64,000 nt of DNA, from NCBI RefSeq assembly GCF_035046485.1, contig NC_085137.1, positions 135,164,703 through 135,228,702 on the forward strand, read 5' to 3'. Of the stretch, positions 16,794 through 55,200 are shown in pieces. Positions within the stretch are counted from its first letter, which is position 1; each line of letters starts with the position of its first letter. Below the pieces are notes generated by a model, which was given only the letters and a program-made list of their open reading frames with translations, was not told where the DNA came from and ran no database searches. The DNA is from Aedes albopictus. Its lineage: Eukaryota; Arthropoda; Insecta; Diptera; Culicidae. The position numbers were made by a program, and so were the translations under genes.

Positions 16794-16828
16794 TACTTAA
16801 GTGTCAAATATTTATAGCATAATTTTAA

Positions 16829-17060
16829 GGACAAACGTATTGAAATCCCGCTTCAAGAGTGCATAAGAACTTCAGACGCACACATCTCAAGAAGCAAGCT
16901 TTAAACAACAGTGCCTTTTATTATTCTGTTCTTGCTCACTTGTAATAAGCTTAAAATAAAAAGATCAGGAGCACTGGTTTTGTTTACGAAGAGATTTGTG
17001 CCCTCGAAATCGTGAGTAGGTGCCAAAGTCGGCCATTTTGGGATTGTAACAAGTCTGTCC
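16829..17060. mobile_element. TTAA-flanked MITE (GGACAAACGT ends), copy 1
   Basis: Flanked by TTAA at 16825-16828 and 17061-17064. Ends GGACAAACGT and AAGTCTGTCC are imperfect inverted repeats. The body contains CGAAATCGTGAGTAGGTGCC followed by AAGTCGGCCATT, which recurs in the copies at 18658-18898 and 44983-45227. TTAA targets are typical of piggyBac-like elements; the superfamily is inferred. Confidence 0.85.
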
Positions 17061-18150: not shown

Positions 18151-18657
18151 GGCTACTCCTCTATCAGATCCAACTCATGTTCTCTTAAATCCTCCTGAAA
18201 AGCCTCTGAAACCTAAACTCCCTGCGATTCCCTGAAACAATTTTTAAACCTCTTGAAACTCCGTGAAACATACTTACAGCCTCCTGTAACGCCTTTGAAA
18301 CGCCCTCCTACATTCCTTTTGCAGCCTCTTTAAACTACAGTGGAATCCCGTAAATTCTTTAAAAGCTTTTCTAATCTTGTGAGAAACATCCTGGAATACT
18401 TCTGAAGGCCTCTGAATGGTTCAGAAAAGCCTCTGCGGCCTCTTGGTACCTCTACAAAACCACCTGTATCCCCATGAAACTCCTCTAAAACTCTCTCAAA
18501 CGACCTTGTAAAGCCCCTGAATTTAGCTCTGAACACTCATGAAATCCTCTTGAAGCCTCTTGAATCGCCTCTGGAATCCCCTAAACCTGTTTTGAAAGCC
18601 CTTTCAATCTTTTGAAACCACATGGAACTCCTTGATAATCCCGTGAATCCCATTTTA

Positions 18658-18898
18658 GGACAAACGTCTTGAAATCCTTCAACAGTGCATAAGAACTTCG
18701 GACGCACAAATCTCAAGAAGCAAGCTTCAAACAACAGTGCATTTTATTATTCTGTTCTTGCTCACTTGTAATAAGCTTAAAATAAGAAACTCGGGTTTGC
18801 TGGTTATGTTTACGAAGAGATTTGTGCTTTCGAAATCGTGAGTAGATGCCAAAGTCGACCATTGTGGCGGCCATTTTGGGATTCTAACAAGTCTGTCC
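18658..18898. mobile_element. TTAA-type MITE, copy 2
   Basis: About 85-90% alike by eye to 16829-17060 over its length, starting GGACAAACGTCTTG and ending AACAAGTCTGTCC. The flanking TTAA sites have decayed to TTTA and TTAG. It lies inside array C. Confidence 0.8.
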
Positions 18899-19416
18899 TT
18901 AGTTATCCATGGCATCCTTTTGTGCCACCTTCATCTTCCCGATACCCCCAATATTCAATATAGACGATGCGGAAAGCTCACGGATATTCATGAGACAGAC
19001 GAACAAACTGGAATTCCTTGAAAAGTCTCTGAAAGACTTCTTAAACTCAAATGAACCTTCTGCAACTCTCTGAAACTCTGATCTTACCCTCGTAAGCTCC
19101 TCAAAACACATGCTGTTGAAATCTTGTTGTAACCTCCCGAAACTCGTCTGAAACTCCCTAATCCTTCTGAAAAGCTTCTGCAACCTAAACCTCCTGCGGT
19201 CCTCCGAAACCTTCTGAAAACCCATGAAACACATGTGAAGCCTCCTGTAACGATGCTGGAATTTCCTTTAACGTCTTTCTTGGTGCTATCTGAAACGCCT
19301 GTGGAAACTCCAAAACCATACGGAAGCCCTTTGAATCTCCTGAGAAACCCTCTGGAACTCTTCTGAAGCCTCCTAAATCCTCCTGATCAACCTCTGCAGT
19401 CCCCGATAACCACTCT

Positions 19417-19934: not shown

Positions 19935-20980
19935 TCCTAGCTTGTGACCGCGCAGAGCTATGGAGAATCATGGACGAAAACGGCTTTCCTGGGAAGCTGA
20001 CTAGACTGATTAAAGCAACGATGAACGATGTGCAAAACTGCGTAAGGGTTTCGGGTTAACTATCCAGTTCATTCGAATCTCGCCGGGAACTGCGACAAGG
20101 TGACAGACTCTCAAGCCTACTCTTCAGCATCGCTCTGGAAGGTGTGATGCGACGAGCCGGGCTCAACAGCCGGGGAACGATTTTTACAAAATCCGGACAA
20201 TTTGTGTGCTTTGCGGACGACATGGACATTATTGCCAGAACATTTGGAACGGTGGCAGAACTGTACACCCGCCTGAAACGCGAAGCAGCAAAGGTCGGAC
20301 TGGTGGTGAATGCCTCCAAAACAAAGTACATGCTGGTAGGCGGAACCGAACACGACCGGATCCGTCTGGGTAGTAATGTTACGATAGACGGGGATACTTT
20401 CGAGGTGGTGGAGGAATTCGTCTACCTCGGATCCTTACTGACGGCTGACAACAGCGTGAGCCGTGAAATTCGGAGGCGCATCATCAGCGGAAGTCGGGCC
20501 TACTACGGGCTTTAGAAGAAACTGTGGTCGAAAACGATTCACCCTCGCACTAAATGCACCATGTACAAAACGCTAATAAGACCGGTGGTCCTCTACGGGC
20601 ACGAGGAGGACCTGCAAGCACTCGGAGTTTTCGAGCGACGCGTGCTAAGGACGATCTTCGGCGGTGTACAGGAGAACGGTGTGTGGCGGAGAAGGATGGA
20701 CCACGAGCTCGCTGCACTTTACGGCGAACCCAGCATCCAGAAGGTGGCCAACGCCGGAAGTATACGGTGGGCAGGGCATGTTGCAAGAATGCCGAACAAC
20801 AACCGGACCAGCTTTGCAAAGCTGGTGTTTGCAACTGATCCGGTTGGCACAAGAAGGCGTGAAGCGCAGAGAGCACGATAGGCGGACCAGGTGGAGCGTG
20901 ACCTGGTGAGCATTGGGCACGACCGAGGATGGAGAGCGGCAGCCACAAACCGAGTATTCGCCTTGACGGAGGCTCTCTGA
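19935..20980 (+). pseudogene. RTE-clade non-LTR retrotransposon, 5'-truncated, C-terminal half of reverse transcriptase
   Basis: One plus-strand frame runs to the TGA at 20978-20980 with in-frame stops near 20056, 20513 and 20879. It covers RT motif B (RQGDRLSSLLF), motif C (FADDMDI, about 20213), the SKTKYM region, EFVYLGSLLT, LIRPVVLYGHE, and RRVLRTIFGG and WAGHVARMP. This order of C-terminal blocks is that of RTE/BovB-like LINEs. Part of the Gly-His-Glu-Trp region is deleted (GHEED). The 5' part, including motif A and the endonuclease, is absent. Confidence 0.9.
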
Positions 20981-25756: not shown

Positions 25757-26559
25757 GTACCAACAGTAGAGGTACATACATCTTAATCTGGTGGGAGGAA
25801 TGGTGACGACGACATACGGGATGATAGTGAGTGCGAGCGAATCTCGTGATTGCATTTCGATGGTGACGAAATATTTACGAGCTGTGATTTTATTGGAGAA
25901 TGATTTGGAAATGATACATGTATGAATGGTTTAATACAGGATGCGCCCACCGAATGCAGTGCAATCGTGATGTAATGGTTTGGAATTTTAATAATCCCAT
26001 CATGAGATATGAGAGTCATTTTTTCATATTAATAGGGGAGTATCCAACAAATACGACATGCTCATTACTTAAGCTTAGCAAACATTACAATATCAATTGC
26101 GATGTTCTAGGAAATCAAAACTATTATTGAGTTTAGTAGATGGGATCTACAGCGGCAAGAGTTTATTTTATTTTGTTAATATAAAAATATGCTACAGGAT
26201 CAACTAGGCTTATTACAGCGCATATAGTATATTAACTGAGAATATGAGATGCTTTCGAGATATTAAGAATTACCCAAACTGTTCTGCAATTCAGAACAGG
26301 GTATCTACAGCTGTAAAACAACTTGTTTTTTGCTTTAAGTTACGCAGCATTACCAACCGTAAGGACTGTATCTCCGGTAAACTCAAGAGTTTTTTTTTTA
26401 ATATATTTATAGGATTTCCTACACATCCAAGAACTTCATGAAGATGTTAAAAGGATCATGAGAAGAAAATAATGATACAAATATTCTCATCATGTAATTT
26501 TGCCAGATGTAAATATGCATTCACTCACGTGCACTGAAAAAGCTACGCACGCTAGTGAA
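25757..26559. other. AT-rich intergenic DNA, nothing recognised
   Basis: No gene, terminal repeat or tandem array could be identified in these 800 bp. Confidence 0.45.
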
Positions 26560-28490: not shown

Positions 28491-31083
28491 GAGATTAGTC
28501 AACTTTGCTGCCGCCAGGGGGGTGGCCATTAGTAGCACCTACTTTGCACGCAAGGATATCCGCAAGCACACCTGGAGACACCCAAACGGCGAGACTTGCA
28601 ACCAAATCGGCCATGTACTGGTAGATGGCCGACATTTCTCGGACGTAATTGATGGATGAACTTTTCGAGGTCCCCACATCGACTCAGATCACTATCTCGT
28701 AGTTAGTAAGATTCGAGCTCGGTTATCAACCGTGTCGGACTCTAGGAACCGGCGATCGATGCGTTCCAGCGGTTTTCAGCAGACGGTACGGTAGCTGAAT
28801 ATCACCAGAAGCTGGACGAGCGGATAAGTGAGATCAACGAGAGCGATAATCTCAACACTCTGTGGGAGTCTATCCACGGAGCGATGAGTACAGCAGCGCG
28901 GGAGGTGATAGGTACTGCTCAAAGACGACCTAGAAACGGGTGGTTCGACGAGGAGTGCCAGAGAGTAACGGACGAGGCGAGAAGAATGTTGCCAGAAACC
29001 GGATGTTGGTGTCGGGGACCCGGTAGAGCAGGGAGCGATATAGGGAAGCAAGAGTAGCCGAAAAACGAATCCACCGCAAAAAGAAAAAAAAAGCACGAGG
29101 AAAATGTGATTGCTCAGGCGCAAGAGAGTATGCAACAGAATGATATGCGGAGATTTTACGAAACTGTCAATGGCGTGCGGACAAAAACAGCGCCTTCTCC
29201 CGTCATGTGCAACGACCGTAATGGAAACTTGCTGACAGACAAGACAATGGTGGCTGCCAGGTGGAGAGAGCACTTCGAGGTATTGTTGAACGGTGGGAGT
29301 GGAAGAGCGATGGACAGAATTCGAATCGACGACGACGGACAAGCTGTGGAACCTCCAACGCTAGACGAGGTCAAGACAGCCATTAGGGGACTGAAGAACA
29401 ACAAGGCTGCTGAGGAGGACGAACTCCCGGCCGAGCTTCTCAAGCACGGTAGTGAGCAGCTGTATCAACTCTTACATCGTATTTTATTGAAGATATGGGA
29501 GGAGGAAGAACTGCCTGCTAGTTGGTTGGATGGTCTCATTTGCCCTCTTTTCATGAAAGGGCATCGACTGGAGTGCGCGAATTACAGAGGAATAACACTC
29601 CTCAATTCAGCGTACAAAATTTTGTCCGGAGTTCTGTTCCACAGGCTGAGGCCGATTGAGGAGTCGGCGAATATCAGGCAGGATTTCGTGAGGGCCGATC
29701 AACGACGGACCAGATGTTCACCCTGCGGCAGATTCTCGATGAATTTCGGAAGTACAACTTGCAAACTCATCATCTGTTTATTGATTTCAAGGCGGCGTAG
29801 GGTAGTGGAGGTATTTTGGCCCGGGGCATGTATTTTGGCCCACCATGGGATTTTAATTACATTTATCATATAATCTCTACAAAATCTTGGCAAATGATTT
29901 TTAGAAGTTCCAATAATCATTTGCCAATATTTGGTAGATATTGTTTGATAAATTTAATAAAAAAAACCAGGGTGGGCCAAAATACATGCCCTGGGCCAAA
30001 ATACGTCCACTACCCTACGATTCAGTGAAGAGAAACGAGTTATGGCAGATTATGATCAAACATGGATTTCCGGCGAAGCTGATTAGACTGATTTGTGCGA
30101 CGCTTGACGGATCGAAATCAAGTGTACGGGTTGCGGATGAAATTTCGTCATCTTTCGTAAACTTTGAAGGACTGAAGCAGGGCGATGCTCTTTCGAACTT
30201 ACTGTTCAACAGAGCACTGGAAGGAGCGATACGGAGAGCTGGTGTGCACAGGAGCGGAACCATTGTCACGAAGTCGCATATGCTCCTGGGCTTCGCGGAC
30301 GATATCGACATCATCGGAATCGATTGTCGGGCCGTGGAAGAGGCGTTCGTACCTTTTAAGAGGGAGACTGCGAGGATTGAACTTACGATTACCACCACAA
30401 AGACTAAGTACATGATTGCTGGTGTTCAACGTCGTTTCGGACGTGGTAGTGGTGACGAAGTGGTGCTAGGTGGGGAAAAGTTTGAAGTTGTGGATGAATT
30501 TGTTTATCTTGGTACTCTAGTGACGTGCGATAATGATGTTACCCGCGAGGTGAAAAGACGGATTGCGGCTGCAAATCGGGCCTTTTTTGGTCTGCGAAAC
30601 CAGCTGAGGTCCCGCAGGCTGCAAACGAAGACAAAACTCGCGTTGTACAAGTCTCTGATTCTCCCGGTCGCTTTATATGGTCATGAAACGTGGACGTTGA
30701 AAGAAGTTAATCGGAGAGCCTTGGAGTCTTCGAACGTAAAGTGCTGCGAACAATACTCGGCGGTAAACTGGAGGACGGCCTCTGGCGGCGTCGCATGAAC
30801 TACGAATTGTACCAGGTATATAAAGAGATGGATATAGTGAAGCGAATACAACACGGCAGGTTGCGGTGGGCTGGACACGTAGCTCGTATGCCGGAGGAAC
30901 GACAAGCTAAAATTATATTCAGCAGAGAACCAGGAAGGAGTCGTCGTCGGCTTCGTGGAAGGCCGCGCACACGTTGGCTTTTTGCAGTTGATGAGGACCT
31001 AAGGACTCTAAACGTTCAGGGCGACTGGAAGCGATTGGCCCAGGGCCGAGGCCAGTGGAGGCGTATACTTCATTCGGCGTAGA
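28491..31083 (+). pseudogene. RTE-clade non-LTR retrotransposon: endonuclease tail plus reverse transcriptase, disrupted
   Basis: From 28491 the plus strand encodes the C-terminal part of an APE-type endonuclease (ARKDIRKHTWRHPNGE, then DSDHYLVVSKIRARL, with one stop near 28660), a linker (NGWFDEECQ), and RT blocks: LKNNKAAEEDELPAELLKHG, NYRGITLLNSAYKI, motif A FIDFKAA, LKQGDALSNLLF, motif C FADDIDII (about 30295), EFVYLGTLVT, LILPVALYGHETWTLK, WAGHVARMPEE, GRPRTRW, ending TAG 31080-31082. Damage visible: 1-nt shifts near 29675 and 30723, and a 216-bp MITE splitting motif A. RTE elements move by target-primed reverse transcription. Confidence 0.93.
29800..30015. mobile_element. 216-bp TA-flanked MITE inserted in RT motif A
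   Basis: Ends GGGTAGTGGAGGTATTTTGG and its near complement, with about 45 bp of terminal inverted repeat containing two TTTTGGCCC words; the interior also folds (GGCAAATGATT with AATCATTTGCC). TA stands on both sides (29798-29799 and 30016-30017). Removing the element plus one TA restores an uninterrupted RT reading of the flanks, so the insertion point is exact. Tc1/mariner-type by target; non-coding. Confidence 0.95.
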
Positions 31084-35252: not shown

Positions 35253-36048
35253 ATGCGGGTAAGTATCTTATTCCTCTCATTTGCAAGAATTGTAATCAGG
35301 CTGAACTCGCGTTTTCTTACCATTACAGTTTACGTTCGTTTTGCTGGTAGTGCTACTAGCAGGAGTAACGCTGTCATCTGCCAAACCACTGATTTTAACG
35401 AAAAAATTCCTGCGTTATGTCCTGCCCACGATAACAGCCAAAGTGGCCGGTCTTTCCGGCCTAAGTGGACTTACTGGTCTCACTGGTCTTACAGGATTGA
35501 CCGGACATAGCGGTAAACTAGGTGGCGCCAAGAAAACAGAGTCGATCGGTTCGGTGTATTTGCCGAATCGAGTGTACTCATTCCTGTTCCCCAAGGATTC
35601 GATCGACCCACCAGCGTCTGTTGTGTACCACTCCTTGGAGGATTACTGCGTTCCGGATCCGTTTGCTCCGGTTCCAGTCCCACCACCGCCACCACCACCA
35701 GGAGTAGTACCCTTCCCGCCTCCAGTAGCTTACCCACCACCCCCACTGGTCTACCCTGCACCGCTTCCAGCACCTCTAGCCGTTGCTCTGCCCCCACCAC
35801 CACCACCAGCAGTACTTCCCGCAGCAGTAGGACAAGGCTGGGAGCAACCCGTTTCAGCACCAGTGGGACAGAGCTGGGAGCAGGACAATGCCCAAACCAC
35901 GGTGAACGTGCAAACTCCCCTCGGTGGACCAACCTCGGTCTACGTTGCCGAAACGCCAGCCGGACGGCACGAGGCTCCTCTTCCGGGCTACAGCAGCTCA
36001 GTGGTTGCCTCGAACACAGCCCCAGCTCCCGGTACGGCACCGTACTAA
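35253..36048 (+). CDS. Secreted proline-rich protein, two exons (35253-35258 and 35329-36048)
   Basis: Exon 1 encodes only Met-Arg; a 70-bp phase-0 intron (35259-35328) has GTAAGT at its start and a pyrimidine-rich TTACCATTACAG end. The joined frame gives 241 residues. Residues 1-20 are a signal peptide (hydrophobic core TFVLLVVLLAGVTL, likely cleavage after SSA). Residues 43-61 are tandem GLS/GLT triplets. YHSLEDYCVPDPF holds the only cysteine (109). Residues 115-167 are runs of Pro with Val/Ala/Tyr, followed by two GQxWEQ repeats and a Ser/Ala/Pro tail. Composition suggests an extracellular structural protein (cuticle, eggshell or salivary/peritrophic type), but I recognise no named family. 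The start is chosen because splicing adds the missing signal-peptide residues upstream of the first in-frame TTG. Confidence 0.88.
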
Positions 36049-36936: not shown

Positions 36937-37182
36937 GGCATCTCTAGAAATGAACTGAACGAATAGACGAGTGCACCGATGAACTGAATTCATCGCGGTC
37001 CGAGAATTTTGACACTACAGCGGGGTCGTTCCCAATCAGAATTGTGCAATTCTGATTGGAAATCTTTCACTTCTGATTGGAAGCGACCCCGCTGTAGTGT
37101 CAAAATTCTCGGACCGCGATGAATTCAGTTCATCGGTGCACTCGTCTATCCTGCAATCACGAAGTTCATTTCTAATGATGCC
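36937..37182. mobile_element. Tiny hairpin element (GGCATCTCTAGAAATGAACT) split by a MITE
   Basis: GGCATCTCTAGAAATGAACT (36937-36956) faces AGTTCATTTCTAATGATGCC (37163-37182), 18 of 20 complementary. Without the inserted MITE (36966-37146) the loop would be about 25 nt, like the uninterrupted hairpins at 56011-56058 and 61202-61252. Confidence 0.75.
36966..37146. mobile_element. TA-flanked MITE (GACGAGTGCACC ends), copy 1
   Basis: Ends GACGAGTGCACCGATGAACT and its exact complement, with arms of about 65 bp that also share GAATTTTGACAC and AGCGGGGTCG. TA on both sides (36964-36965 and 37147-37148). Related copy at 38781-39106. Tc1/mariner-type by target; non-coding. Confidence 0.92.
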
Positions 37183-38685: not shown

Positions 38686-38780
38686 CGAACGTGCCCCATT
38701 ATTGGGCTTATTGGGCGGAACTATGGGATTGCGTCAAAAGAACTCAATTTTGGGTAGTTTGGCGGTTCAGTGTAGAGATA

Positions 38781-39106
38781 GACGAGTGCACCGATGAACA
38801 TTGAGTTCACTGAGCCTGAAATTTTTTGACAGCACAGTGGGGTCGACTCTTAACAACTTCTACTCAGAGATGCATCACCAAAATGCACTGATAATATTTT
38901 CTTTGATTTCTTACATGAAATCATATTTAAAGTGATGCATATGCATATAGTTAATGCACTAGACCATATTTTTGCAACTTCATCGCGAAAACTAGATGCA
39001 ATAACTTAAACAAATTTTCAGCTAGGCAGAAGTTGTTGAGAGTCGACCCCGCTGTGGTGTCAAAATTCGTGGCCCGAGTGAACTTTCAGCGGGCGGTGCA
39101 CTCGTC
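38781..39106. mobile_element. TA-flanked MITE (GACGAGTGCACC ends), copy 2
   Basis: Ends GACGAGTGCACCG and CGGTGCACTCGTC with TA on both sides (38779-38780 and 39107-39108). Shares GGGGTCGACTCT and TTTGACA words with copy 1, but is 326 bp long because of a different, longer centre. Confidence 0.88.
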
Positions 39107-39499
39107 TATGGGCAAAACAGTTCTTTCAAGTGAACCATTCTCAATTGAACAGTTCCTTAGAAAGCACTAGTTCTTTTGAACCGTTCTTCCGTTCAGTAGT
39201 TTTTATATGGTTGTTTTGTGATCCGAAGTTCGACGTTTTTATGTTGTCGTGTTATTTACGTGACCACGTAATCAAGCAAACCCGTCTCTGCTCAAATATG
39301 TAAGATTTGTGATATTTCTGTACATTGACTCCCGTTTTTTTAACCGGCAGCATGGCATCGGAGTACTATTTTGTGATAGATCAATCACAACATTCGCTTT
39401 CTTAGAACCCAATCTTCGTTTATTGAAAAAGCTGAATGAACAGTTCTACGAGATACACTAGCGTGCACAGGGGGGGGGCAAGGGGGGGCACTTGCCCCC

Positions 39500-42150
39500 C
39501 CTTCTATAAAAAAATTCTATGCACCATTTTTACAATTCTTGCACCTTGGATCTTACCACGCAATGTTGAGAATAACTGAGCTATGGTGCACCATTGACAC
39601 ATACAATTTCTTAGTATCTCATGCACGACCATGATGTTCTCAGAATCAACTAGGCTAAACTCATGCACCATCTTCTAACTAATCAGTGCAAAACAACGAG
39701 TATCACTGAATAACAGTGACGACTAATACAGCACACTAACATCATGCACCTTCTTCAAAGCTTTCAATGCACCATCATGATGTCCACAGAATGATCTAGG
39801 TATCCACGTATTAAAATAATCGCATGAAATGTCTTTTTATCAATTAAGTATCTAATACCTCATACTGATATGCACCATCATGAAACTTCATGCACCATCA
39901 CAGCTCTTCAAGCACCATTTCAGCGTTTATCATATCATGTATGCATTTAAAGCACCGTAATGCCGTGAGCATTACATAAAATACATTTTTTTGTATGCTA
40001 TGCACCATTTTTGCAATTCGTGCACCTAACCATATTGATAAGCATTGAAAAACGGTGACAACTAAAGCATCATATCATGCACCTTCTTCAAAGCTTACCA
40101 ACCACCATTTTGGCACTCACTATATCATCTAGGCATCTTATGCACCATTATGATGTGGTTCTCAAGTGAATTTGATACATCATTTTGGCAATTCGCATAC
40201 AAAATAGCACTCATTGTACCTGGACTATGTTGATTTCTGTGCCGTATTGAGTTTCCTGCACCATTTTTGCAATTCGTGCACCTACATGTGGAATTTGTTG
40301 AGTATAACTGAATCATGGTAAAACTAATGCACCATACAGACATCATGTAGCTCCTTTGCATTACATGCACCATCATGATGATCACATACATATCTAAACA
40401 CCATCTCACGCGTCATCTAAGCATTTAAATCACATTTGAATTTCATAAGCTCCATTTTGTCATATCGTACACCCAATTGTATTCCATGTACCTGGCCATG
40501 TTGACTTCCGCACCACATTAAATTCTATGCATCATTTTTGCAATTCTTGCATTTTGGATCTAACCACCCAATGTTGAGAATCACTGAATCATGGTGGCAA
40601 CAAATGCACCCCTGATACATACAATTTCTTAGTATCGCATGCACACCCATGATGTTCTCAGGATCATTTTTAGGCTAATCTCACGCACCATCTTTTAACT
40701 AATCAGTGATGTCAGCAACATATTCGAATAACATGCACCATTTTGGCATTTCGTATTCAAAAACTGTAATCCATGTACGTGAACCATGATGACTTCGGCA
40801 CCACATTGAATTCCAAGCACCATTTTTGCAATTCGTACACCTAGCCATACACAATGGCAAGTGTCGCTGAATAACGGTGACAACTAATACAGCACACTCA
40901 TATCGTGTACCTTCTTCAGAGCGTCCACAGAATGAACTAGGTATCCACGCATTATGCTGATCTCATCCACTATCTTTTAATCAACTAGAAATCTAATGCA
41001 TCATACTGATATGCACCATCATTAAATTTCATGCACCATCAAAGCTTTCCAAGCTCCATTTCAGCATTTATTGTATCATCTAGGCATCTGATGCACCATT
41101 ATGTTGTGAGCATCACATTAAATACTTTTATTTTGCATTCTATGCACCATTTTTGCAATTCGTGCACCTAACCATGCAACATGTTGATAATCTTTGAATA
41201 ACGGCTACAACTAATGCAGCACACTAGCATCTTACGCCTTCTTCAATGCTATCCATGCATCATTTTGGCATTCATTATACCATCTAGGTATCTTATGCAC
41301 CATTATGATGTGGTTTACATTTGAATTTGATGCACCATTTTGGCATTCCGCATACAAAATAGTATTCCACGTACCTGGAACATGTTGATTTCAGTGCCAC
41401 ATTGAGTTTCCTGCACCTTTTCACGAATTGCATGTGCACCTTCATATGAAACATGGCGAGTATAACAGAATCATGGTGAAGCTAATGCACCATACATACA
41501 TCATTCATACCATGCACCACCAAGATGTTCACAGAAGCGTCTAGGCACCATCTTACGCATTATCTTTGAATCAAATATGTGTCTAATTGCGAAATAATGC
41601 ACCATCGTTAAATTTCATGCATTACTAAAGCTTTTTATGCGTAATCATGGCGTTCACTATATCATCTAGGCATCTATTGCACCATTATTATTGTATGATG
41701 TTTCGCACATCGAAATTGCATTTCGTGTACGATGTCAACTCTAATGCATCATACTGCCATCAAGCACCATCTTTGAATGACATGCTCCATATCAGCATTC
41801 AATGCACCATACCAATGAACTCAGTGTTATCAGAAGATCCTATACACCACGGTGACATCATGCACCTTTATTGCCGCACGCAATTTGATTTTTACGCAGC
41901 ACCAACATTTTTATGTTCACACCATCTCCAAATCTCATGTTTTATCTTCTTCTATATTCTATAAATCAAATTGCAATTACTTGTCACGCATGCACTATCT
42001 CGACGTTCCCTTGATCATTAAGGTATATAATGTACCATACTCACATCACTCACCTTTTTAAAATTCTATGCACCTTCTTGGTGTTCATTGTATCATCCAC
42101 AATTGCATTTTATATACCATTTTGTGATTCGCGCATCAAAACAGCATTCC
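39500..42150. repeat. TGCACCAT-type degenerate repeat with ~1-kb higher-order period
   Basis: TGCACCAT and GCACCATTTTTGCAATTCG recur dozens of times with irregular spacing (near 39519, 40008, 40256, 40527, 40816, 41140). A longer unit is visible: the stretch around TCTATGCACCATTTTTACA at 39519, through GTTGAGAATAACTGA and ACATACAATTTCTTAGTATC, returns at 40526. Short remnants of the same theme occur at the right end (51990-52055). Confidence 0.8.
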
Positions 42151-44982
42151 GCGGATCATTTTGAGAATCACTTTACCAGCTTGAGAAATATCTGGAGTAA
42201 TCCGTGAAGGCATTCCAGGAGAAATCTCTGGAGAAATTTCAGAAGGAAGCTTTGAAGGACTTTCTGGAGGAATCCCTGAAGGCATTATTAAAGAAGTGCT
42301 TGGAAGAATTCTTGAACGAAGCTCTCAAAAACTGGAAGAGGAGTCTAGAGAAAATCCTGTAGAATTTGCAGGAGGAACTACTAGAGGAATTGCTGGAAAA
42401 TTATTGAAGGAATTCCCTGAAGGCATTCCTAAAGGAATCCTTGGAGAATTTCCTAGGGGAATCCGTAGAGGAATTCATGAAAGAATTCATGGAGGAATTT
42501 GTGGAGAAATATTTCGAAAAACTCCTGGAAAAATTCTGGAAGAGTTCCAGCAGGGGCTCATTAACGAACCCCTGGAGTAAACTCTGGAGGCATTCCTGGA
42601 AGAAACCCTGGAGAAATTCCTGGAAGAATTTCTGGAGGAATCTCTGAAGGCATTCCTGAAGGAATCCTTGGGAGAATGCCTGGAGGTTTCCTTGTAAGTA
42701 TTCCTGGAGGAACTTCTGGAAGAATGTCCGTAGGAATTTCTGCAGGAATCCCTGAGGAAATTTCTGGAGGGACATTGAGAGGAGTTTCTTGAAGAACTCC
42801 TGGAGGAAGCTATGAGAAATTCCTGGAGAAATCGCTGGTGTAATCCCTGGAGGAATTTCCGTGAATTACAGGATGAAACACTGGAGGGGTAAAAGAAGGA
42901 GTCCATGAAGGAATCCATGAAATAATTGATGGAGGAATTCCAGGATGAATTGCTGGAGGAATTCCAGAAGGATTTTTTGAACAAAATCCTGCATGAATTT
43001 GTGGAAGAATTACTCGAGGAATTCAATGACAAATCCTTGCAGAAATTACTGGAGAAATCTCTGGAGGAATTTGTGGAGCAATTTCTGGAGGAATCAGTGG
43101 AGTCATTCCTAAAGGATTTTTTTGAAGAATCCGCGAAAAAAAATCTTGGAGGAATTTCTGGAGGCATTATTTCAAGATACATTGGAAGAATTTCTGGAAG
43201 ATTTTCAGGAGGAATACTTGTAGAAATCCCTGGAAACATTCGTAGAGAAAATCCTAGAGAAAGCTTTGGAAAATTCCTGGAGAAATCGCTGCTGTAATCC
43301 TAGGAGGAATTCCTGAAGGAATTCGTAAAGCAATTCAAGGATGAATCCCTGAAGAATTATTAGAGAAAGTTCTGGAAGAATTACTAGAGGTTTTTCTGGA
43401 AAAATTCCTAAAAAAATGTAGGAATTCCTGGAAGAATTTTTGGAGGATTTCCTGAAGAAATTCTTTGAAAAATTTCTGGAAAAAGATTTGCGGCTTCCTG
43501 GAGGAATGATTAAAGGAACTCCTCGAGCAAAAGAATTCCTAGAGGGATTTTTGAGCAATATCTGACGAAATTTATTGATGAATCCCTGGAGGAATTCCTG
43601 AAGAAATTCCTGGCGAAATCTTTGGAGGAATACCTGAAGAAATTTTTCGAGGAATTGCTGGAACACTTCCAGGAGAAGTTTTTTTTCTGGAGAAATCCGT
43701 GGATAATAGAGGAATTCTTTAAGGAATCCATGAAGAATTTTTAAATGATTTTCCGGAGCAATTAATAGAGAAATTTTTTATAGTTGTCCCAGGAGAAATT
43801 TCTGGACAGATTCGTTGAAAAATTCCAGAAAAAAAATCCTGAAAAAATGTCTGTAGAAATCCCTGGAGAAATTTCTCGAAGAACTCCTGGAAGAGTTCCG
43901 GGAGAAATTTCTTTAGGTTTTTCTGGAGAAATCTGAGCAGGAATTCCTTTAGGAGTCCTTGAAGAAATTCCTGGAGGAATCTCTGTAGAAATTCCCGAAG
44001 GTATTGGATGATTTTCTTGAGGAATCTCTGGAGAAATTCTTGGAGGAATCCGTGTTTGAATTCCGGGAGGTATTTCTGGATAAATTCCTAAAGAATTTTT
44101 TGGTGCAATAACTAGAGAATCCCCTGGATGAATTCTTAAAGGAATTTCTGGCTTCCCAGAGTAACTCCTCGAGGAATTTGTGAAAGATTTTTTTTTGAGT
44201 AGTTTCTGAAGAAACTCATGGATGGACTCCTGGATGAATTCCCGAAGAAATTCCTGGAGGAATCCCTGGAGAAATCCCTAAAGGAATTCCTAGAGAAATT
44301 CCCAGGAAAGATCCGGGAAAAATCCCTGCTGTAATCCTAGGAGGGATTCCTGAAGGAATCTGTGAAGGAATTCAATGATGAATCCCTGGGGAATTCCTTG
44401 AAAATTTTCTGGAAGAATCCTTAAAGGTTTTTCTGGAGAAATTCCTGAAAAAAATGAAGTAATTCCTGGAAAAAAATCTGAAGGATTTGAAAAATTTCTG
44501 GAAAAATATTTGCGGCTTCTTGGAGAAATGATTTAAGGAACTCCTCGAGCAATTTCTGAAAGATTTCCTACAAGGATTTTTGAGGAATATCTTAAGAAAT
44601 TCATTGATGGAATTACTGGCGAAATCCATCGAGGAATCCCTGGAGAAATTTTTCGAGGAATTCCTAGAGGAATTCCTGGAACAGTTCCAAGAGAAGTTTT
44701 TTTTGGATAAATCCGTGGATGAACTCTTGGAGGAATACCTAGAGGAATTTTTGGGGGTATCCATGAAGAATTTTTTAGAGGATTTTCTGGAGCAAAAACT
44801 AGAGAATTTTTTATAGCTGTCCCAGGGAAATTTCTGCAAAGATTCCTGGAAAAATTCAAAAAAAAATATCCTGAAAAAATTCTGTAGAAATCCCTGGAAA
44901 AAATTTTCGAGGAATTTCAGGAAGAGTTCCGGGAGAAATTTCTTCAGGATTTTCTGGAGAAATCCGAGCAGGAATTCCTTAA

Positions 44983-45227
44983 GGTGAAACATCAAGAAAT
45001 CCCACTGCAATTTTGCATACAAACTTTAGAGGCACAAATCTGACGAACGAAGCAGCAAACCAAGCCGCACTTGTTTATCCTGGCTTTGCTCACTTGCAAA
45101 AAGAGGCAGCTTTTCCAAATCAAGCGCATTTGTTTTCGATTTTTTGAGATTGGTGCTTTTGAAATCGTGAGTAGGTGTCCAAGTCGGCCATTGTGGCAGC
45201 CATATTTGTATTCTGTGATGTTTCTCC
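44983..45227. mobile_element. TTAA-flanked MITE, copy 3, inside the minisatellite
   Basis: TTAA at 44979-44982 and 45228-45231; ends GGTGAAACATCA and TGATGTTTCTCC. The right-hand body (GAAATCGTGAGTAGGTGTCC, then AAGTCGGCCATTGTGG) matches 16829-17060 and 18658-18898, while the ends have diverged. Confidence 0.82.
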
Positions 45228-45274
45228 TTAAGGTATTCTTGCAGAAATTCTTGGTGGAATCCCTGTAGAAATTC

Positions 45275-48200
45275 AAGATGGAATTACTGAAGACATTTTT
45301 TAAGGAATGAATGGAGAAATTCCTGGAGGAATTCCCGAAAGAATTCTTTGAGGTATTTTTTTGCGAAACATTCCTGGAGGAATTCCTGGATGATTTTCTT
45401 CAGGAATCTCTGGAAAAATTTCTGGGAGAATCCATGTTTGCATTCCGGGAGGTATTTCTGTATAAATTCCCCCAGATTTTTTTGGATTCATTTATGTATT
45501 CTTAGAAGAATAACTAGAGAAATTCCTGGATGAATTCTTTAAGCAATTTCTGGACAAATATTTAAAGCTTCCTGGAGGAATGTCCTCGAGAAATTAATGA
45601 AGGACTTTTTTTGAGCAATTTCTGAAGAAACTCATGGATGAATTCCCGAAGAAATTTCGGAGGAATCCATGAAGAAATCTCCGGAGGAATTCCTAGAGAA
45701 ATTCCCTGAAAAGATCCGGAAAAAATCTTTTAGGATTTTCTGGAGGAATTAGTCAAGGAATTTCTGGAAGAATCCCTGGAGACAATATTGGAGGAATACT
45801 GGCAGAAATTCTTAGAGAATTTTCTGTAGGAATTCCGGCTGAAATCCCTGGAGGTATTTCATGAGGATTCCATGGAAGTATCCCTGGAGGAATTCCTAGA
45901 AGAGTTCTAGGAGAAATTGATTTAGGATTATGTGGAGGATTCCGTGAAGGATTTCCTGGAAAAATCCCTGGATGAATGCATTGAGAAATTTCTGGTGGAA
46001 TTTATGGAGGGAGAAATTTCTGAAGGAATTCCTGGAGAAATTCCTGGAGGAATCCATGGAGGTATCCTTGAAGGAATTCTTGGAAGGGTTCCCGGAAACA
46101 TTCCTTTAAGATTCTCTGGAGGAATTCTGACAGAAATTCCTAGAGGATTTTCTGGAGTAATTCCTGGAGGTATTTCTGGATGAATTTTTGAAGAAATTCA
46201 TGAATAAATCGTTGAAGGAATGAATCCCTGAAGAAGTCCTTGAGAATTTTCTGTAGAATTTCCTGGAGGAATCCATGGAAGAATTGCTCGAGAAATTCCA
46301 GGAGGAATTCCTGGAAGAGTTCCGGGAGAAATTCCTTTAGGATTTTCTGGAGGAATTTGTACAGCAATTCCTTAAAGAACCCCTAGAGGAAATATTTAAG
46401 AAATTCTGGCAGACATTTCTAGAGGATTTTTTCTAGAAGAAATTTCATGAGGAATCTCTGGAGGAATTCCTGGAGGTAATTCTGATGAAATTTCTGGAGT
46501 ATTTACTGGAGGAATTATTTGGGGAAATTCTGGAGAAATATATGAGGCTTCATGAAGAAATTTCTGAAGGAACTCCTCGAGGAATTTCTAAAGGAATTTC
46601 TGGAGGAATTTCTGCAGGATTTATTTAAAGAATTTCTGAAGAAATTTTTTAACGAATCCCTGCAGGAACTCCTTGAGAAACTCCTTGAAAAAGTTCTTGA
46701 GGAATTCTTTGAGGAATGCAAGGAGAAATCCCAGTAGTTCTGGTGAAAATTCTCAGAGGATTTTTTAGAGGAATCCCTGGAGGAGTTCCTGGTAGAGTTT
46801 CTGGCGCTCTTCCTTAAGGCGAAACCGGAAGCATTTTCTCATTTTTTTTTGGTTTTTGATTTTTTATTAAATAACGAAGCAATATTTTCAAAATCAGTTT
46901 TCGTGCACATGTAGAGTATGGATCAAGGTATCTTCTGATTTTTTTTATGGTGGAAAATGTTTTCCATTTTTGCAGAAACCATTTGTTTGTGAAATTTGTT
47001 CAAAAATGGTTTCTGCAAAAACGAAAACCATTTTCCACCACAAAAAATTCAGAAGATACCTTGATCCATACTCTACATGTGCACGAAAACCAATTTTGAA
47101 AATATTGCTTCGTTATTTAATAAAAAATCAAAAACCAAAAAAAAAATGAGAAAATGCTTCCGGTTTCGCCTTAAGGAAGAGCGCCAGAAACTCTACCAGG
47201 AACTCCTCCAGGGATTCCTCTAAAAAATCCTCTGAGAATTTTCACCAGAACTACTGGGATTTCTCCTTGCATTCCTCAAAGAATTCCTCAAGAACTTTTT
47301 CAAGGAGTTTCTCAAGGAGTTCCTGCAGGGATTCGTTAAAAAATTTCTTCAGAAATTCTTTAAATAAATCCTGCAGAAATTCCTCCAGAAATTCCTTTAG
47401 AAATTCCTCGAGGAGTTCCTTCAGAAATTTCTTCATGAAGCCTCATATATTTCTCCAGAATTTCCCCAAATAATTCCTCCAGTAAATACTCCAGAAATTT
47501 CATCAGAATTACCTCCAGGAATTCCTCCAGAGATTCCTCATGAAATTTCTTCTAGAAAAAATCCTCTAGAAATGTCTGCCAGAATTTCTTAAATATTTCC
47601 TCTAGGGGTTCTTTAAGGAATTGCTGTACAAATTCCTCCAGAAAATCCTAAAGGAATTTCTCCCGGAACTCTTCCAGGAATTCCTCCTGGAATTTCTCGA
47701 GCAATTCTTCCATGGATTCCTCCAGGAAATTCTACACAAAATTCTCAAGGACTTCTTCAGGGATTCATTCCTTCAACGATTTATTCATGAATTTCTTCAA
47801 AAATTCATCCAGAAATACCTCCAGGAATTACTCCAGAAAATCCTCTAGGAATTTCTGTCAGAATTCCTCCAGAGAATCTTAAAGGAATGTTTCCGGGAAC
47901 CCTTCCAAGAATTCCTTCAAGGATACCTCCATGGATTCCTCCAGGAATTTCTCCAGGAATTCCTTCAGAAATTTCTCCCTCCATAAATTCCACCAGAAAT
48001 TTCTCAATGCATTCATCCAGGGATTTTTCCAGGAAATCCTTCACGGAATCCTCCACATAATCCTAAATCAATTTCTCCTAGAACTCTTCTAGGAATTCCT
48101 CCAGGGATACTTCCATGGAATCCTCATGAAATACCTCCAGGGATTTCAGCCGGAATTCCTACAGAAAATTCTCTAAGAATTTCTGCCAGTATTCCTCCAA

Positions 48201-48713
48201 TATTGTCTCCAGGGATTCTTCCAGAAATTCCTTGACTAATTCCTCCAGAAAATCCTAAAAGATTTTTTCCGGATCTTTTCAGGGAATTTCTCTAGGAATT
48301 CCTCCGGAGATTTCTTCATGGATTCCTCCGAAATTTCTTCGGGAATTCATCCATGAGTTTCTTCAGAAATTGCTCAAAAAAAGTCCTTCATTAATTTCTC
48401 GAGGACATTCCTCCAGGAAGCTTTAAATATTTGTCCAGAAATTGCTTAAAGAATTCATCCAGGAATTTCTCTAGTTATTCTTCTAAGAATACATAAATGA
48501 ATCCAAAAAAATCTGGGGGAATTTATACAGAAATACCTCCCGGAATGCAAACATGGATTCTCCCAGAAATTTTTCCAGAGATTCCTGAAGAAAATCATCC
48601 AGGAATTCCTCCAGGAATGTTTCGCAAAAAAATACCTCAAAGAATTCTTTCGGGAATTCCTCCAGGAATTTCTCCATTCATTCCTTAAAAAATGTCTTCA
48701 GTAATTCCATCTT
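45275..48713. repeat. 3.4-kb nearly perfect palindrome centred at 46994
   Basis: The left arm 45275-46993 and right arm 46995-48713 are inverted copies; outside the central MITE I found one substitution (near 46251 against 47737). Symmetry holds for every checked landmark, for example TTAA at 46814-46817 against 47171-47174. Identity stops abruptly at 45275 and 48713. The centre is the loop of a fold-back MITE. Confidence 0.93.
46818..47170. mobile_element. 353-bp TTAA-flanked fold-back MITE, copy 1 (chimeric right end)
   Basis: Ends GGCGAAACCGGAAGC and its complement between TTAA sites. Inner arms are imperfect (for example CAGTTTTCG against CCAATTTTG), but the outermost 45 bp of the right arm match the left arm exactly, unlike copy 2. 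This is explained by a switch onto the left arm at 47094-47127. Confidence 0.88.
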
Positions 48714-49322
48714 TCTGAAGGAACTCCTCGAGGAATTTCTAAAGGAATTTCTGGAGGAATTTCTGCAGGATTTATTTAAAGAATTTCTGAAGAAATTTTT
48801 TAACGAATCCCTGCAGGAACTCCTTGAGAAACTCCTTGAAAAAGTTCTTGAGGAATTCTTTGAGGAATGCAAGGAGAAATCCCAGTAGTTCTGGTGAAAA
48901 TTCTCAGAGGATTTTTTAGAGGAATCCCTGGAGGAGTTCCTGGTAGAGTTTCTGGCGCTCTTCCTTAAGGCGAAACCGGAAGCATTTTCTCATTTTTTTT
49001 TGGTTTTTGATTTTTTATTAAATAACGAAGCAATATTTTCAAAATCAGTTTTCGTGCACATGTAGAGTATGGATCAAGGTATCTTCTGATTTTTTTTATG
49101 GTGGAAAATGTTTTCCATTTTTGCAGAAACCATTTGTTTGTGAAATTTGTTCAAAAATGGTTTCTGCAAAAACGAAAACCATTTTCCACCACAAAAAATT
49201 CAGAAGATACCTTGATCCATACTCTACATGTGCACGAAAACCAATTTTGAAAATATTGCTTCGTTATTTAATAAAAAAATCAAAAACCAAAAAGTGAGGA
49301 AATGCTTCCAGTTTCGCCTTAA
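48714..49322. repeat. Direct duplicate of 46561-47170 following the palindrome
   Basis: Sequence from 48712 repeats that from 46561 (offset 2151), through the array and the whole MITE. The two bases TT at 48712-48713 fit both neighbours, a microhomology junction. After the second MITE the flank differs from that of the first. Confidence 0.92.
48969..49318. mobile_element. 350-bp TTAA-flanked fold-back MITE, copy 2 (probably the original)
   Basis: TTAA at 48965-48968 and 49319-49322. The right end reads CTTCCAGTTTCGCC with a GTGAGG variant, diverged from the left end as normal for an aged MITE, and its two flanks are unrelated (CGCTCTTCC and GCAGAAATTT). Confidence 0.9.
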
Positions 49323-52321
49323 GCAGAAATTTCTTAAGAATTCCCGGAGGATTTTTTGCGGAATTTCTGAAAAAATTCATGGATGGATTCCTCGGAGGAA
49401 TTCCTGAAGAAATGCCTTGAGAATGTCCTGGAGGAATCCATGGGGGAATTTTTCGAGGAATTCTAGGAGAAATTCCTGGAAGAGTTCCGTTAAAAATTCA
49501 TTTAGGATTATCTGGAGGAATGCGAGGATCCATTCTTGGAGGAATCCATAGAAGAAATATTTCAGGAATTCTGACAGTCATTCCTAAAAGAAAATTTCAG
49601 GAGGAATCTCTGGAGGAATTATTGGAGTATTTACCAGAGGAATTATTTGAGGAATTTGTGGTGAAATATATGAGGCTTTCTGGAAAATTAATGGAGGAAT
49701 GCCTGAAGCAACTTCTCAAGGAATTTCTGAAGGAATATCTGGAGAAATTTCTGAAGATATTAATTATTGCATCCCTAGAGGAATTCCTGAATAAATTTCA
49801 GGAAAAAATCCTGGAGAAATTCCTAGGGGATTCCGTGGAGGATTCCCTGGTGGAATTTCTCGCAGAATCATTCGAGGAACTCCTGGAGGAATTCCTGGGA
49901 GAGTTTCGGGTGAAATTACTTTAGGATTTTCTGGTGGAGTCCATGGATGAATTTCGGGGAGAAATCGAAGGCATCTCGGAAGAATTTCTGGAGGAATGTC
50001 TGAAGGAACTACTCGAGCAAATTCTGAACGAATACCTGGAGGATTTTTTTTTTGAGGTTTTCTGAAGAAATTTATGGATGAATTCCTGCAGGAATTCTTG
50101 GATAAATTGCTGGAAAAAATCCTGAAGAAATTCCTGAAGGAATCCGTGGAGGATTTCCTGGACAAATTCCTTGCGGAATTCCTCGAGGAATTCTTGGAAG
50201 GGTTCCGGGAGACATTCTTGGGAAACTCAGGCAGAAATTCCTAGAGGATTTCTGGAGGAATTGCTGGAGGAATTGCTGGAGGAATTTCAGGAGTTCTTCC
50301 TCGACAAATTTCTGAAAGAATTGCCGGTGTAATTTCTGGAGGATTTTTTGTGGAAATTCTGAAGAAATCCATGGAGGAATTCCTGATGAAATTGTTTGAG
50401 AATATTCTGGAGGAATCCATGGAAAAATCCTTGGAGAAATTTCTACCTGGAAGAATTCCGTGAGAAATTCCTTTAGCATGTTATGGAGGCATCCTTGGAG
50501 GAAATATTGGGGGAATTCTGACAAACAGACATTCAGGAATTTTCCTAGAAAAATGTCAGGAGGGATCACTGGAGGAATTTTAGGAGTATTTACTGAAGGA
50601 ATTCCTGGAGGATTTATTTGAGGAATTTCTGGAGAAATATATGAGGCTTCCTGGAGAAATTCTGAAAGAACTCCTCGAAGAATTTCTGAAGGAATTCCTG
50701 GAGGAATTTCTGGATGAAATTTCTGAGGAATTTCTGAAGAAATTCAGTAATGAATCCCTGGAGAAATTCCTTAAGAAATTTCTGGAAAAAATCCTAAAGA
50801 AATTGCTGGAGGATTGCTTGGAGGTATTCCTGAAAGAGTTTTGGAAGAATTTTTTTTAGGATTTTCTGCAGGAATCCGTGGAGGGATTCCTGAAAGAAAT
50901 CACTGGTTGCATATTGAAGGAATTTCTAAAGAAATGTCTGAAGGAACCCCTCGAGGAATTCCTAAAGGAATATCTGGAGGAATTTCAGAAGAAATTCATT
51001 ATTGAATCCCTGAAGGAATTCCTGAAAAGAAATCCTGGAGAAATTACTGGAGGAATCTGTGGAGGATTTCCTGTAGAGAATCCTAGCGGAATTTTTGGAA
51101 GAGTTCCGGGAGACATTCTTTTAGGATTCTTTGGAGAAATTGTGGCAGAAATTCCTAGAGGATTTTCTGGAGAAATCCCTGGAGGAATTTCATGAGGAAT
51201 TCTTGGAGGATTTTTTTAGGAATTCCTATAGGAATTTCTGGCGTTATTTTTCGAGAAATTTCTGGAGTAATTTGTTGAGGAATTTAAGGATTTTTTGAAA
51301 TAATTCATGGATGAATCCCTGAAGGAATTCCTGAAGAAATTCGTTGAGAATTTCCTGGATAATTTTCTGAAGGAATCTAGGAGCAACTCCTAGAGGAATC
51401 CCTGGAGGAAATATTGGGGGAATTGTGGCAGACATTTCTAGAGGCTTTTTCCTAGAAGAAATTTCAGGAGGAATTCCTGGAGGTAATTTTGAAAGAATTC
51501 CTGGAGTATTTACTGGAGGAATTCCTGAAGGAATTATTTGATGAATTTCTGGAGAAATATATGAGACTTCCTGGAGGAATTGCTGAAGGAATTATTGGAG
51601 GATTTTTGGGGGAAATTCTTGGAGGAACTCAAGCACGAATCTTTGGAGAAATCATGGAGGAATCTCTGTAGATTGCAACAAGGATTCCGATCAAAATGTT
51701 CTATCTAGGAGTTCTGACATTCTTCAATTCTAACATCACTAATTGTCTAGGATCAGAATTCTTTCACAACGACAATATTTTTTTCTATAATTGATAATTT
51801 TCTAGATATTCTCCATTGTATTTGATACGTTTATAACATTTTATAAGAGTCGAGATAATGACTTCATATTAAAGTCTCGTATTGCCTTGAAATCATCACC
51901 ATCCGAAGCCTTCTCCAGAATCCCAATATGAAGTACTTGGCGATGTTAGCACCACAACATGTTGAAACCCCTACTTGGGAATTCATATTGCGTGTAACAC
52001 CATCATTCTATTTTGCACCATGATCATACATATATTGCACCATTATTGTAGTGCCCCCCCCCTAAGCAAGAACCCTGCGCACGCTAGTGACGAGATATTT
52101 AGTTTTCTCGTTTTTGAAAGAATGGAGAACTACCGTTCTTTTTAAAAGAACCGCAGTTCAGTCATTCTCTCCTTAGAAATAGTTCTTCGGAACCGTTCGC
52201 GAACGGTTTGCTCATCTCTATCGTTGGCGTATGACGTCATCGTGAACAAGTTCATGGACATATAAAACAAAAACAGGTTAAGTAATACTTCCAGATTTTC
52301 AGCAGAGATCTTTTTGGTCAA

Positions 52322-53289: not shown

Positions 53290-55200
53290 TCTATGGTTCT
53301 TCGCTTGAATTCCTCCCGGGATCCTCCTTTGATTTTTATCGCAATTCCTCCTTTTAAATATTTTGCAACTGACAGAATTCTTCTCACAAGTTCTTTTCCT
53401 GGAGGTTTGCCGAAGTTTTTTTTTTCAGTTTTCCGAGAAAAAAAAAACAATGGAGAAAATTTGAAAGTTTAATCATAGTTCCTTAAGAAATTTCTCTAGC
53501 TGGGATAGCTTTCCAATATTTTTTCTCGCAATTTTTTGCAAGATCTTTGTAGAAGCTATTCCAGGGATTTTTTCCAGTGTTTTCCGACATTTCCTATGGA
53601 TTTCCTCCCGGAATTTTTCTTACCAATTCCTTCTTCATTTTTTTTTATATTTCTTCCCAGGATTACTTCCTGAACTTTTTTCTGTGATGTCCCAATTTTC
53701 CTCAGGATTTCTATTCCCAAAGTTTCTCTCGAGATTTCTGCAATAAGTTTGCAGAGATGTTTCTCTTCAAATTTCACCTGGATTTCTTCAGCTATCCTAT
53801 AAGACATTCCGAAGAAAAATCCCTGCAAGAACTCCGGGAGCAGCCATCATAATAAACCTAAAAGGAGCATCCTGAATCTCTGGACAGTTTCTGGTGGGAG
53901 TTCCGAGAAGTAAAGTAATCCCGAGAAAATCTATAAAAAAAAATCTCAGGTGGTTGGATCACAGCAAGAAATCTGGTAAACAACTACATGGAAAAGCCTG
54001 GGAAAATCTCTGCGGAAGAAAACAGAGAACTCCTTGAGATATATTAGCAGTAGCTCCTGCAGATATCCCAGAAGCCACTCCGGCAAAATACATAAGAGAA
54101 AAAGTGAAAGTAGGGTATCGCGCCACTTGGGCGGTGGCTTCTATATTCGTCTGTTTTCCACTATAACTCAGTCATTTTTAAACCAATTGACTTGAAATGT
54201 TGTACACGGGTAGATACTATACCTAATTCACCACATTCCAAAAGTTGTGTTAATTGGTTCAAATTTGACTGAGTTATAGTGGAAAACAGACGAATATAGA
54301 AGCCACCGCCCAAGTGGCGCGATTCCCTATGTGGTAAAAGTCCAGGGTGAATTCAGAAAAACTCTGAGAGATATCCCAGCACCAACACTGAAAGGAATCT
54401 TCTGAGTGAAGTCCCGGGAGAAACTCCGAAAAAAATCTCCAAGATTGTGACAATTCGAAACAAATCCCTCAAGAAACTTTTGGAAATATCCCAGACGAAA
54501 CTGCAATAGAAATCCAGGGAAAAACTTTGGAAGAAAGCTCACGGAAATAACTTTAAAAAAAATAATAAAAACAGAGGGAAGTTCGGAAAAAAAATCTCGA
54601 AAGGAACTCATGCAGTAAATTCGTGAAAAACTTCCTACGAAATCATTGGAAGCGCTCTATAAGAAAACCCAGGAATCCTCCTGTAGCAACTCTGGGAGAA
54701 AACTCCTGGGGAAGTCCCGAGAGAAACACCGGAAGGAATCGCGGCAAATCTTCAAGGGGAATCCCGAGAGAAACTCTGTGTCAACATTTGCAAAATATTC
54801 TAGAAACTCTTTGGAGGTTTGGGCAAAACGCAAGAGGAACTCCGAGAAAATCCCGCGAGGGCCTCTGGCAGCAATACCGGGAAATTCTCTTGAAGGAAAG
54901 GAAATTGAGTAGGTTCCCCGTAAAAAATTTCAGGAGAAATCGGTCGGACTGCAGGAATACTTGACGATACAAGGAAGAATCTAGTTCTAATCTTGGAATG
55001 ATGCTGGTGGGAATGCGGAAGAATCTCCGGAAGGAATTTGGAAAGGAATACCAAGAAAAATGGTGTAAAAAAATACGGAAAGATTCTTGTGAGAAATCCT
55101 GAGAGGCATTCCAAGAGGTATTTTTAGAGAAGCTCCCCAAAAAACTCTGACAGAGTTTCCGGAAAAAATCCTTTCAGTGGAGTTTCTAGATGAAAAAGAC
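53290..55200. repeat. Degenerate short-unit array B, homologous to array A
   Basis: As in array A, units change strand: TTTCTC/GGATTTC words up to about 53790, then GGAGAAA/GAAATCC words. 53860-54000 and 54335-54440 correspond to 10280-10410 and 10490-10570 (shared phrases GGAGCA-CCTGAAT, TTCAGAAAAACTCTGAGAGA, AGGAATCTTCTG). Interrupted by the MITE at 54113-54327. Open frames are by-products. Confidence 0.7.
54113..54327. mobile_element. 215-bp TA-flanked MITE with 64-bp terminal inverted repeats
   Basis: Ends GGGTATCGCGCCACTTGGGC and its near complement (TATCG against AATCG at the tip), continuing through CTTCTATATTCGTCTG and CACTATAACTCAGTCA. TA at 54111-54112 and 54328-54329. Inserted in array B. 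Tc1/mariner-type by target. Confidence 0.95.

Follow-up and report, generated by a model that had tools for sequence, protein, structure and literature searches.

The window analysed here, a 64,000-bp stretch of the Aedes albopictus genome (contig NC_085137.1), contains at positions 39456-52089 a block that very probably belongs, as one copy, to a family of large, non-autonomous class II (cut-and-paste) DNA transposons. The family probably numbers several hundred copies, and its body consists of about 9.9 kb of old, degenerate satellite-like DNA. Its copies share their ends, are flanked by 8-bp target-site duplications, are dispersed to many sites and, where compared, hold the same array order.

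Ends and target-site duplication of the window copy

The block is bounded by 17-bp terminal inverted repeats (TIRs) with one mismatch between them, namely the A-type left end CACTAGCGTGCACAGGG (39456-39472, + strand) and the G-type right end CACTAGCGTGCGCAGGG (52073-52089, - strand, given as reverse complement). Immediately outside these lies an exact 8-bp duplication, ACGAGATA, at 39448-39455 and 52090-52097 (both + strand), and the + strand of the window holds just these two occurrences. The likeness of the ends continues past 17 bp, with gaps, to approximately 40 bp through a G-run and GCACT, as revealed by local alignment of the outer 80 bp. The inverted ends and duplication reported in an earlier note on this DNA are therefore seen in the sequence, and none of 60 first-order Markov simulations of the window yielded a pair with an exact 8-bp duplication and at most one mismatch per 17 bp within 20 kb. 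By the same criteria the real window holds 36 pairs, 33 of which lie inside the array, where inverted repeats are abundant; the three outside it are the 39456-52089 element and two pairs with a palindromic "duplication", i.e., plain inverted repeats. A random-pair control for end similarity was not used, as true inverted repeats of the window reach the score in 29 of 2,000 cases. The proposal that the flanks are two halves of an older palindromic miniature inverted-repeat transposable element (MITE) was dropped, its alignment score being equalled by 111 of 500 shuffles. In addition, a lone end-like motif, CACTAGCGTGCGTAGCT, with three mismatches to the family end, occurs at 26541-26557 (- strand) and possibly belongs to a related element.

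Copies elsewhere in the genome

The exact end motif occurs 646 times (329 forward, 317 reverse) in the genome searched (1.344 Gb in 1,494 contigs); the reversed-pattern control gave 0 and 0 matches, and the motif was unmatched in viral contigs. Among the candidates scored (40 of 879), the left 301 bp matched 39 places besides the window copy with 95-97% identity over the first 233 bases, and the right 410 bp likewise matched 39 besides the window copy with 94-97% identity (40 of 663 scored). Pairing was based on the first 100 of the 646 end places, all on C1, which formed 39 inverted neighbour pairs within 30 kb, with no neighbours closer than 30 kb in any other orientation. Every one of these pairs combines one A-type with one G-type end, and the A-type end is on the left and the G-type end on the right in each of the 20 C1 pairs for which both ends were read. 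Pair lengths range from 2,489 to 24,900 bp with a median of 9,441 bp, and 31 of the 39 fall at 8-12.5 kb. Other copies sharing both ends in inverted orientation within 20 kb, with 8-bp duplications, which the earlier note had suggested looking for, are thus present, their ends lying about 10 kb apart. Extrapolating the pairing share of the first 100 ends would give approximately 250 copies with both ends exact. An end motif shared by so many copies is what a class II family presents. The 2,489-bp and 5,917-bp pairs are deletion derivatives and not autonomous copies.

Target-site duplications were scored for the first 22 pairs, of which 20 were read at both flanks (19 exact, one with a one-base difference) and two were read whole; together they comprise 20 exact duplications, one with a single mismatch and one without a match. 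The 5,917-bp copy, which was read whole, carries an exact duplication. Separately from the pair listing, ten copies (c01-c10) were read over 20 kb, c01-c04 being picked since both of their ends were already listed and c05-c10 being the best left-end matches. Both ends and an exact duplication were present in eight of the ten, at lengths of 6,400 to 13,767 bp, including all four pre-selected copies and four of the six others. All 28 exact duplications tabulated, with that of the window copy, are distinct. A target-site duplication of constant length that differs at each locus is characteristic of class II insertion.

Three left ends lie in one 20-kb stretch elsewhere in the genome (C2:366853158-366873157, L019-L020). 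The second and third are 3.85 kb apart and have the outer flank CCCTCTAT in common, which points to a tandem duplication that took in the flank.

The array is carried as a unit

All nine of the copies read over 20 kb that have a right end are collinear with the window copy from the left block across the array to the right segment, with deletions, and c07 is collinear up to 51976, indicating that the body is inherited as a unit, as in class II elements. BLAST identities to the window copy, gaps included, mostly lie between 82 and 96%, individual segments falling to 75-79%. Within the array, same-position identity (gaps not counted) is 0.895-0.954 in eight of nine global alignments, compared with 0.555 between neighbouring 12-bp units within the window copy; the value of 0.813 for c04 is unreliable, as its global alignment fails at the right end. 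The same array order and the high same-position identity between copies indicate that degeneration of the array preceded dispersal and that the array travelled with the element instead of being built anew. The earlier proposal that satellite DNA moved as one unit is accordingly borne out by shared ends, by 8-bp duplications belonging to each copy and by the same array order in other copies; its further idea that such a unit might seed new satellite loci is less secure.

The copies also differ in ways that reveal later change. c10 is without the region at approximately 44.1-45.2 kb, and c08 has lost a piece near 51 kb, an out-of-order 75% match there being a cross-match within the array. A deletion of 41654-42187 is shared by c09 and two further left ends beside c06, and about 112 bp at 44005 is gone in the window copy, c01 and c03 and present in c02, c04, c06, c08 and c09. 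Extra segments in c01, c03, c06, c09 and c10 have no mutual match over more than 80 bp, and we take them for nested insertions. The array is still changing: 63 of the 207 array indels of at least 6 bp are multiples of 12, where about one in 12 would be expected without bias, in a count from eight pairwise alignments (c04 left out) with an aligner that favours 12-multiple gaps in a 12-bp array.

Regarding age, 29 duplications (nine from long copies, the window copy included, and 20 from the pair listing) contain one mismatch in 232 sites, i.e., 0.4% (95% interval 0.01-2.4%). Divergence between copies near the right end is 1.7-8.7%, leaving out c10, in which a nested insertion raises the value; in another distance comparison c04 and c09 come out too high, probably because their deletions shift array DNA into the region compared. 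The insertions thus seem more recent than the divergence of the copies from one another, a pattern suggesting that several lineages continued to transpose, which is a lead and not a date. The age estimate is biased young, the copies having been chosen for exact ends and c06, c07 and the 2,489-bp copy having been left out.

Internal organization of the window copy

Next to the left end, a subterminal G-run and C-run (39473-39505, + strand) can form a hairpin, with a predicted DNA fold of -16.1 kcal/mol over 39456-39515. It is followed by a TGCACC-rich left block (39506-42180, + strand), in which TGCACC occurs 34 times and GGTGCA once, compared with a mean of 0.4 TGCACC in 200 base shuffles. The degenerate 12-bp array (GGAATTCCTGGA type) then spans approximately 42.18-51.67 kb, and its identity in the shared core is 0.555 at lag 12 versus 0.354 at lag 13. 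Three parts of it, all on the + strand, are common to other copies (42181-44985, 45225-46818 and 49325-51675), the third being mostly deleted in c04. Beside the right end lie a non-repeated segment of about 310 bp that is conserved between copies (51676-51985, + strand) and a right subterminal stretch (51986-52072, + strand) that carries a C-run and two TGCACC motifs.

Two features of this layout depart from the earlier description, which had envisaged two degenerate tandem arrays in a symmetrical order. The 12-bp array agrees with that description, whereas the TGCACC block is motif-rich and not a clean tandem array, with weak lags just at 20 and approximately 1,150 bp and no array listed within it by Tandem Repeats Finder. 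The order is asymmetric, with TGCACC DNA occupying about 2.7 kb at the left and about 60 bp at the right, in addition to the non-repeated segment on the right.

Nine shorter open frames touch the left block. A Pfam scan of the ten array frames of at least 130 codons gave no match reaching the curated cut-off, and the few hits far below it included no transposase. The array frame 49421-49924, used as a protein query, had no relatives at E <= 0.001. Elsewhere in the window, two GGAA/TTCC-rich stretches (9940-12300 and 53300-55200) are 69% alike over 457 bp and resemble the 12-bp array in style; no family ends were found in them at up to three mismatches.

Parts private to the window copy and the fold-back structure

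Approximately 2.75 kb of the window copy is private, comprising two MITEs, one of them palindromic, and a fold-back duplication. The MITE-like insertion at 44986-45224, which has 68% matches at 18654-18901 and 16825-17041, was found in none of the nine other aligned copies, seven of which show a clean uninterrupted junction. The segment 46819-49324 was likewise found in none of the nine, with a clean junction visible in five; the copies without a visible junction have deletions or gaps at that spot. Conversely, the window copy is without 126-145 bp after 39688 that nine other aligned copies contain. Removing the private parts leaves a shared core of 9,889 bp, so that the 12.6 kb originally given for the element shrinks to about 9.9 kb.

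We read 46819-49324 as one palindromic MITE followed by a putative fold-back event that would have added 2,151 bp. The first copy of the palindromic MITE (46819-47169) is followed by an inverted copy of 45275-46818 (47170-48711, - strand) with one mismatch (46251/47737) and by a second forward copy, starting from 46561, of the array end and the palindromic MITE (48712-49324, + strand); 46561-47127 is identical to 48712-49278, a direct copy of 567 bp. The order over 45275-49324 is A, B, inverted B, inverted A, B, centred on the palindromic MITE. With a single mismatch in the arms outside the MITE, the fold-back event is either very recent or an assembly error. The latter is a real possibility, though not the one we would favour: the near-identity of the arms, the identical direct copy and the absence of the fold-back from all nine other aligned copies agree with it, but a very recent real duplication would give an identical picture. 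Were it an assembly error, the true copy would be about 10.5 kb, and the assignment to a transposon family would be unaffected.

Alternative explanations

Several observations weigh against the interpretation as a transposon family, or against its placement in hAT. Among the first 100 ends, 22 are unpaired. The flanks of the 2,489-bp copy, the other copy read whole, do not match; in c06, which does have a right end, the 8-bp flanks of the two sides disagree, and another left end lies 28 bp further on; c07 is without a right end at up to three mismatches within 19.8 kb. The hAT end consensus is C/T-A-G/A-N-G, which the ends of the element, starting with CACTAG, do not fit. The Ac target-site consensus is matched by 3 of the 28 target sites. 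The Buster consensus (PMC3517528) is matched by 1 of 28. Finally, no autonomous element with these ends (CACTAGCG) was found in an examination of 12 of the 23 DUF4371 (hAT-type) places in the genome, whose 1.5-kb flanks hold no family end at up to four mismatches.

The unpaired ends would suit a composite structure, in which a resident satellite block lies by chance between two independent short insertions, and the fixed base at which left and right ends differ makes distinct elements possible in principle. Such a coincidence is nevertheless scarcely credible, given that the 8-bp duplications match across the entire block, both in the window copy and in 20 of the first 22 pairs elsewhere, and that all 39 pairs combine one A with one G end. 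Only marginally less improbable is a short MITE of this family having inserted at each site, with the satellite arising or expanding inside it later and independently in each copy. That the array still changes, partly in 12-bp multiples favoured by the aligner, is compatible with such expansion, but the same array segments recur in the same order in compared copies at unlinked sites, so that the array must have been present before dispersal, and the pair lengths cluster at 8-12.5 kb.

The choice of superfamily is less secure than that of class. The hAT elements have short TIRs and 8-bp duplications according to the excerpted text of PMC3942097 and PMC3517528, and the 8-bp duplications here, together with 17-bp ends differing at one base, fall within this description, including the 10-25 bp given for hAT TIRs in PMC3942097. 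The target preference of the Tip group was not investigated according to the portion of PMC3942097 consulted, and the misfit to Ac and Buster therefore does not exclude hAT. It is possible, but unlikely, that the family belongs to another class II superfamily with 8-bp duplications, such as P, Merlin or an undescribed one. This would agree with the target sites and with the lack of a linked hAT transposase at the places examined, and Merlin elements, as described in the excerpted text of PMC8101967, show duplications of 8-9 bp and can contain internal tandem repeats; however, Merlin ends start with GG in the same source, in contrast to CACTAG here, and short ends with 8-bp duplications match the hAT descriptions. 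The hAT label of the earlier note thus fits the duplications and the short ends, although the target sites are not of the Ac or Buster type and no transposase with these ends was found at the places examined. Overall, hAT membership is plausible but unproven.

A transposase-like frame at 1068-2546 (- strand) was considered as an autonomous partner and rejected, as it lies in an element (241-2958) with different ends. This is a separate hAT-type element with the 8-bp duplication CCCTATAC and ends TAAAGTGACCAGA. Its open frame of 492 codons has no Pfam match at 0.001; its best relative has 71% identity, and several of the relatives carry the name hAT dimerisation protein.

Proposed mechanism

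The family would be mobilized in trans by a transposase, most likely a hAT one, encoded elsewhere in the genome: this enzyme would bind the ends, excise the entire block and reinsert it through cuts staggered by 8 bp. Additional transposase-binding sites might be provided by the TGCACC motifs and by the G/C hairpin close to the ends, a guess prompted by Galileo, for which the excerpted text of the Tetris paper (PMC4079207) describes additional binding sites in the internal repeats. After insertion, copies would diverge through point mutations, nested insertions and the gain or loss of array DNA, in part by steps of 12 bp; the window copy would later have acquired its MITE, palindromic MITE and fold-back duplication. 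More tentatively, the satellite may be the working body of the transposon. In that case, an array of about 10 kb, much larger than non-autonomous elements usually are, would have moved efficiently since TGCACC and the G/C hairpin serve as many transposase-binding sites, and several lineages would have kept jumping, maybe still being polymorphic, thereby spreading old, slow-changing satellites to hundreds of sites.

Relation to known elements

Elements with internal tandem repeats are already known, including Tetris, hAT-derived MITEs of Atlantic cod, Merlin and pearl, and the comparisons that follow extend as far as the excerpted text of each source. Tetris, a foldback element of Drosophila virilis (PMC4079207), is similarly a class II element without conserved frames and with internal tandem repeats; its complete copies have 8-9 bp duplications, its transposase source was not found in the account given there, and it was proposed as a satellite source. 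Tetris, however, carries 220-bp repeats inside long inverted arms (PMC4079207), whereas the present element has 17-bp ends, a shared body without an inverted repeat and, as its bulk, a degenerate 12-bp array of about 6.8 kb. The alignment of its ends stops at approximately 40 bp, unlike the long arms of foldback elements, and the 1.6-kb internal inverted repeat of the window copy was found in no other aligned copy. The cod MITEs gadMor-hAT-1784 and gadMor-hAT-8043 (PMC12368964) are annotated as hAT, have no transposase in that description, consist of tandem repeats and have mean insertion lengths of 1.3-5.8 kb. They differ in their 167-169 bp unit, which lies in inverted arms of about 600 bp in gadMor-hAT-1784 (PMC12368964), compared with a 12-bp array, short ends and 8-bp duplications here.

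Merlin elements with internal tandem repeats (PMC8101967) share the duplication length and have been suggested to spread proto-satellites, but the families described there carry an IS1595-type DDE transposase. Pearl/CvA and other satellite-linked MITEs are also non-autonomous and linked with tandem repeats, but the review that covers them puts the length of MITEs at about 400 bp (PMC9659126), in contrast to the 10-kb satellite bodies here; the median pair length likewise exceeds the hundreds of base pairs usual for MITEs. The hAT Tip, Ac and Buster groups agree in their 8-bp duplications and short TIRs (PMC3942097, PMC3517528), but comprise full, transposase-bearing elements, whose length is put at 2.5-5 kb in PMC3942097 and at below 4 kb in PMC3517528, whereas the present family is about 10 kb long without a transposase. 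Among the open-licence papers listed in literature searches, no report was found of a short-ended family of about 10 kb with a constant-order degenerate 12-bp array at such an end number; repeat libraries such as Repbase and TEfam lie outside this coverage, and the family may be catalogued there.

Other features of the window

A frame at 35305-36048 resembles cuticle proteins, with 70% identity to an Aedes aegypti protein and 59% to an Armigeres subalbatus protein, and its Cuticle_4 match lies below the curated cut-off. Reverse transcriptase gene fragments (Pfam RVT_1) occur at 20060-20515 and 29938-30798 and presumably derive from non-LTR (non-long terminal repeat) elements. In addition, an inverted repeat with palindromic outer bases is present at 36985-37127, and a stretch about 80% like it recurs near 38778-39109.

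Implications

Transposons have often been invoked as carriers of satellite DNA, and the cases found in the literature, within the text of the sources consulted, are short elements, or repeats that sit within longer arms or next to genes. In the present family, a several-kilobase degenerate minisatellite has been moved in as one piece, leaving clean target duplications, and the end count puts such sites in the hundreds. The family therefore represents a natural replicated experiment, in which arrays of common descent at many places would allow measurement of the rates at which 12-bp units are gained and lost, of effects on local chromatin and of the seeding of satellites. If the element is still active, polymorphism between strains would be expected. 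In this mosquito genome, class II transposition can bring a repeated, non-coding load of approximately 10 kb to high copy number.

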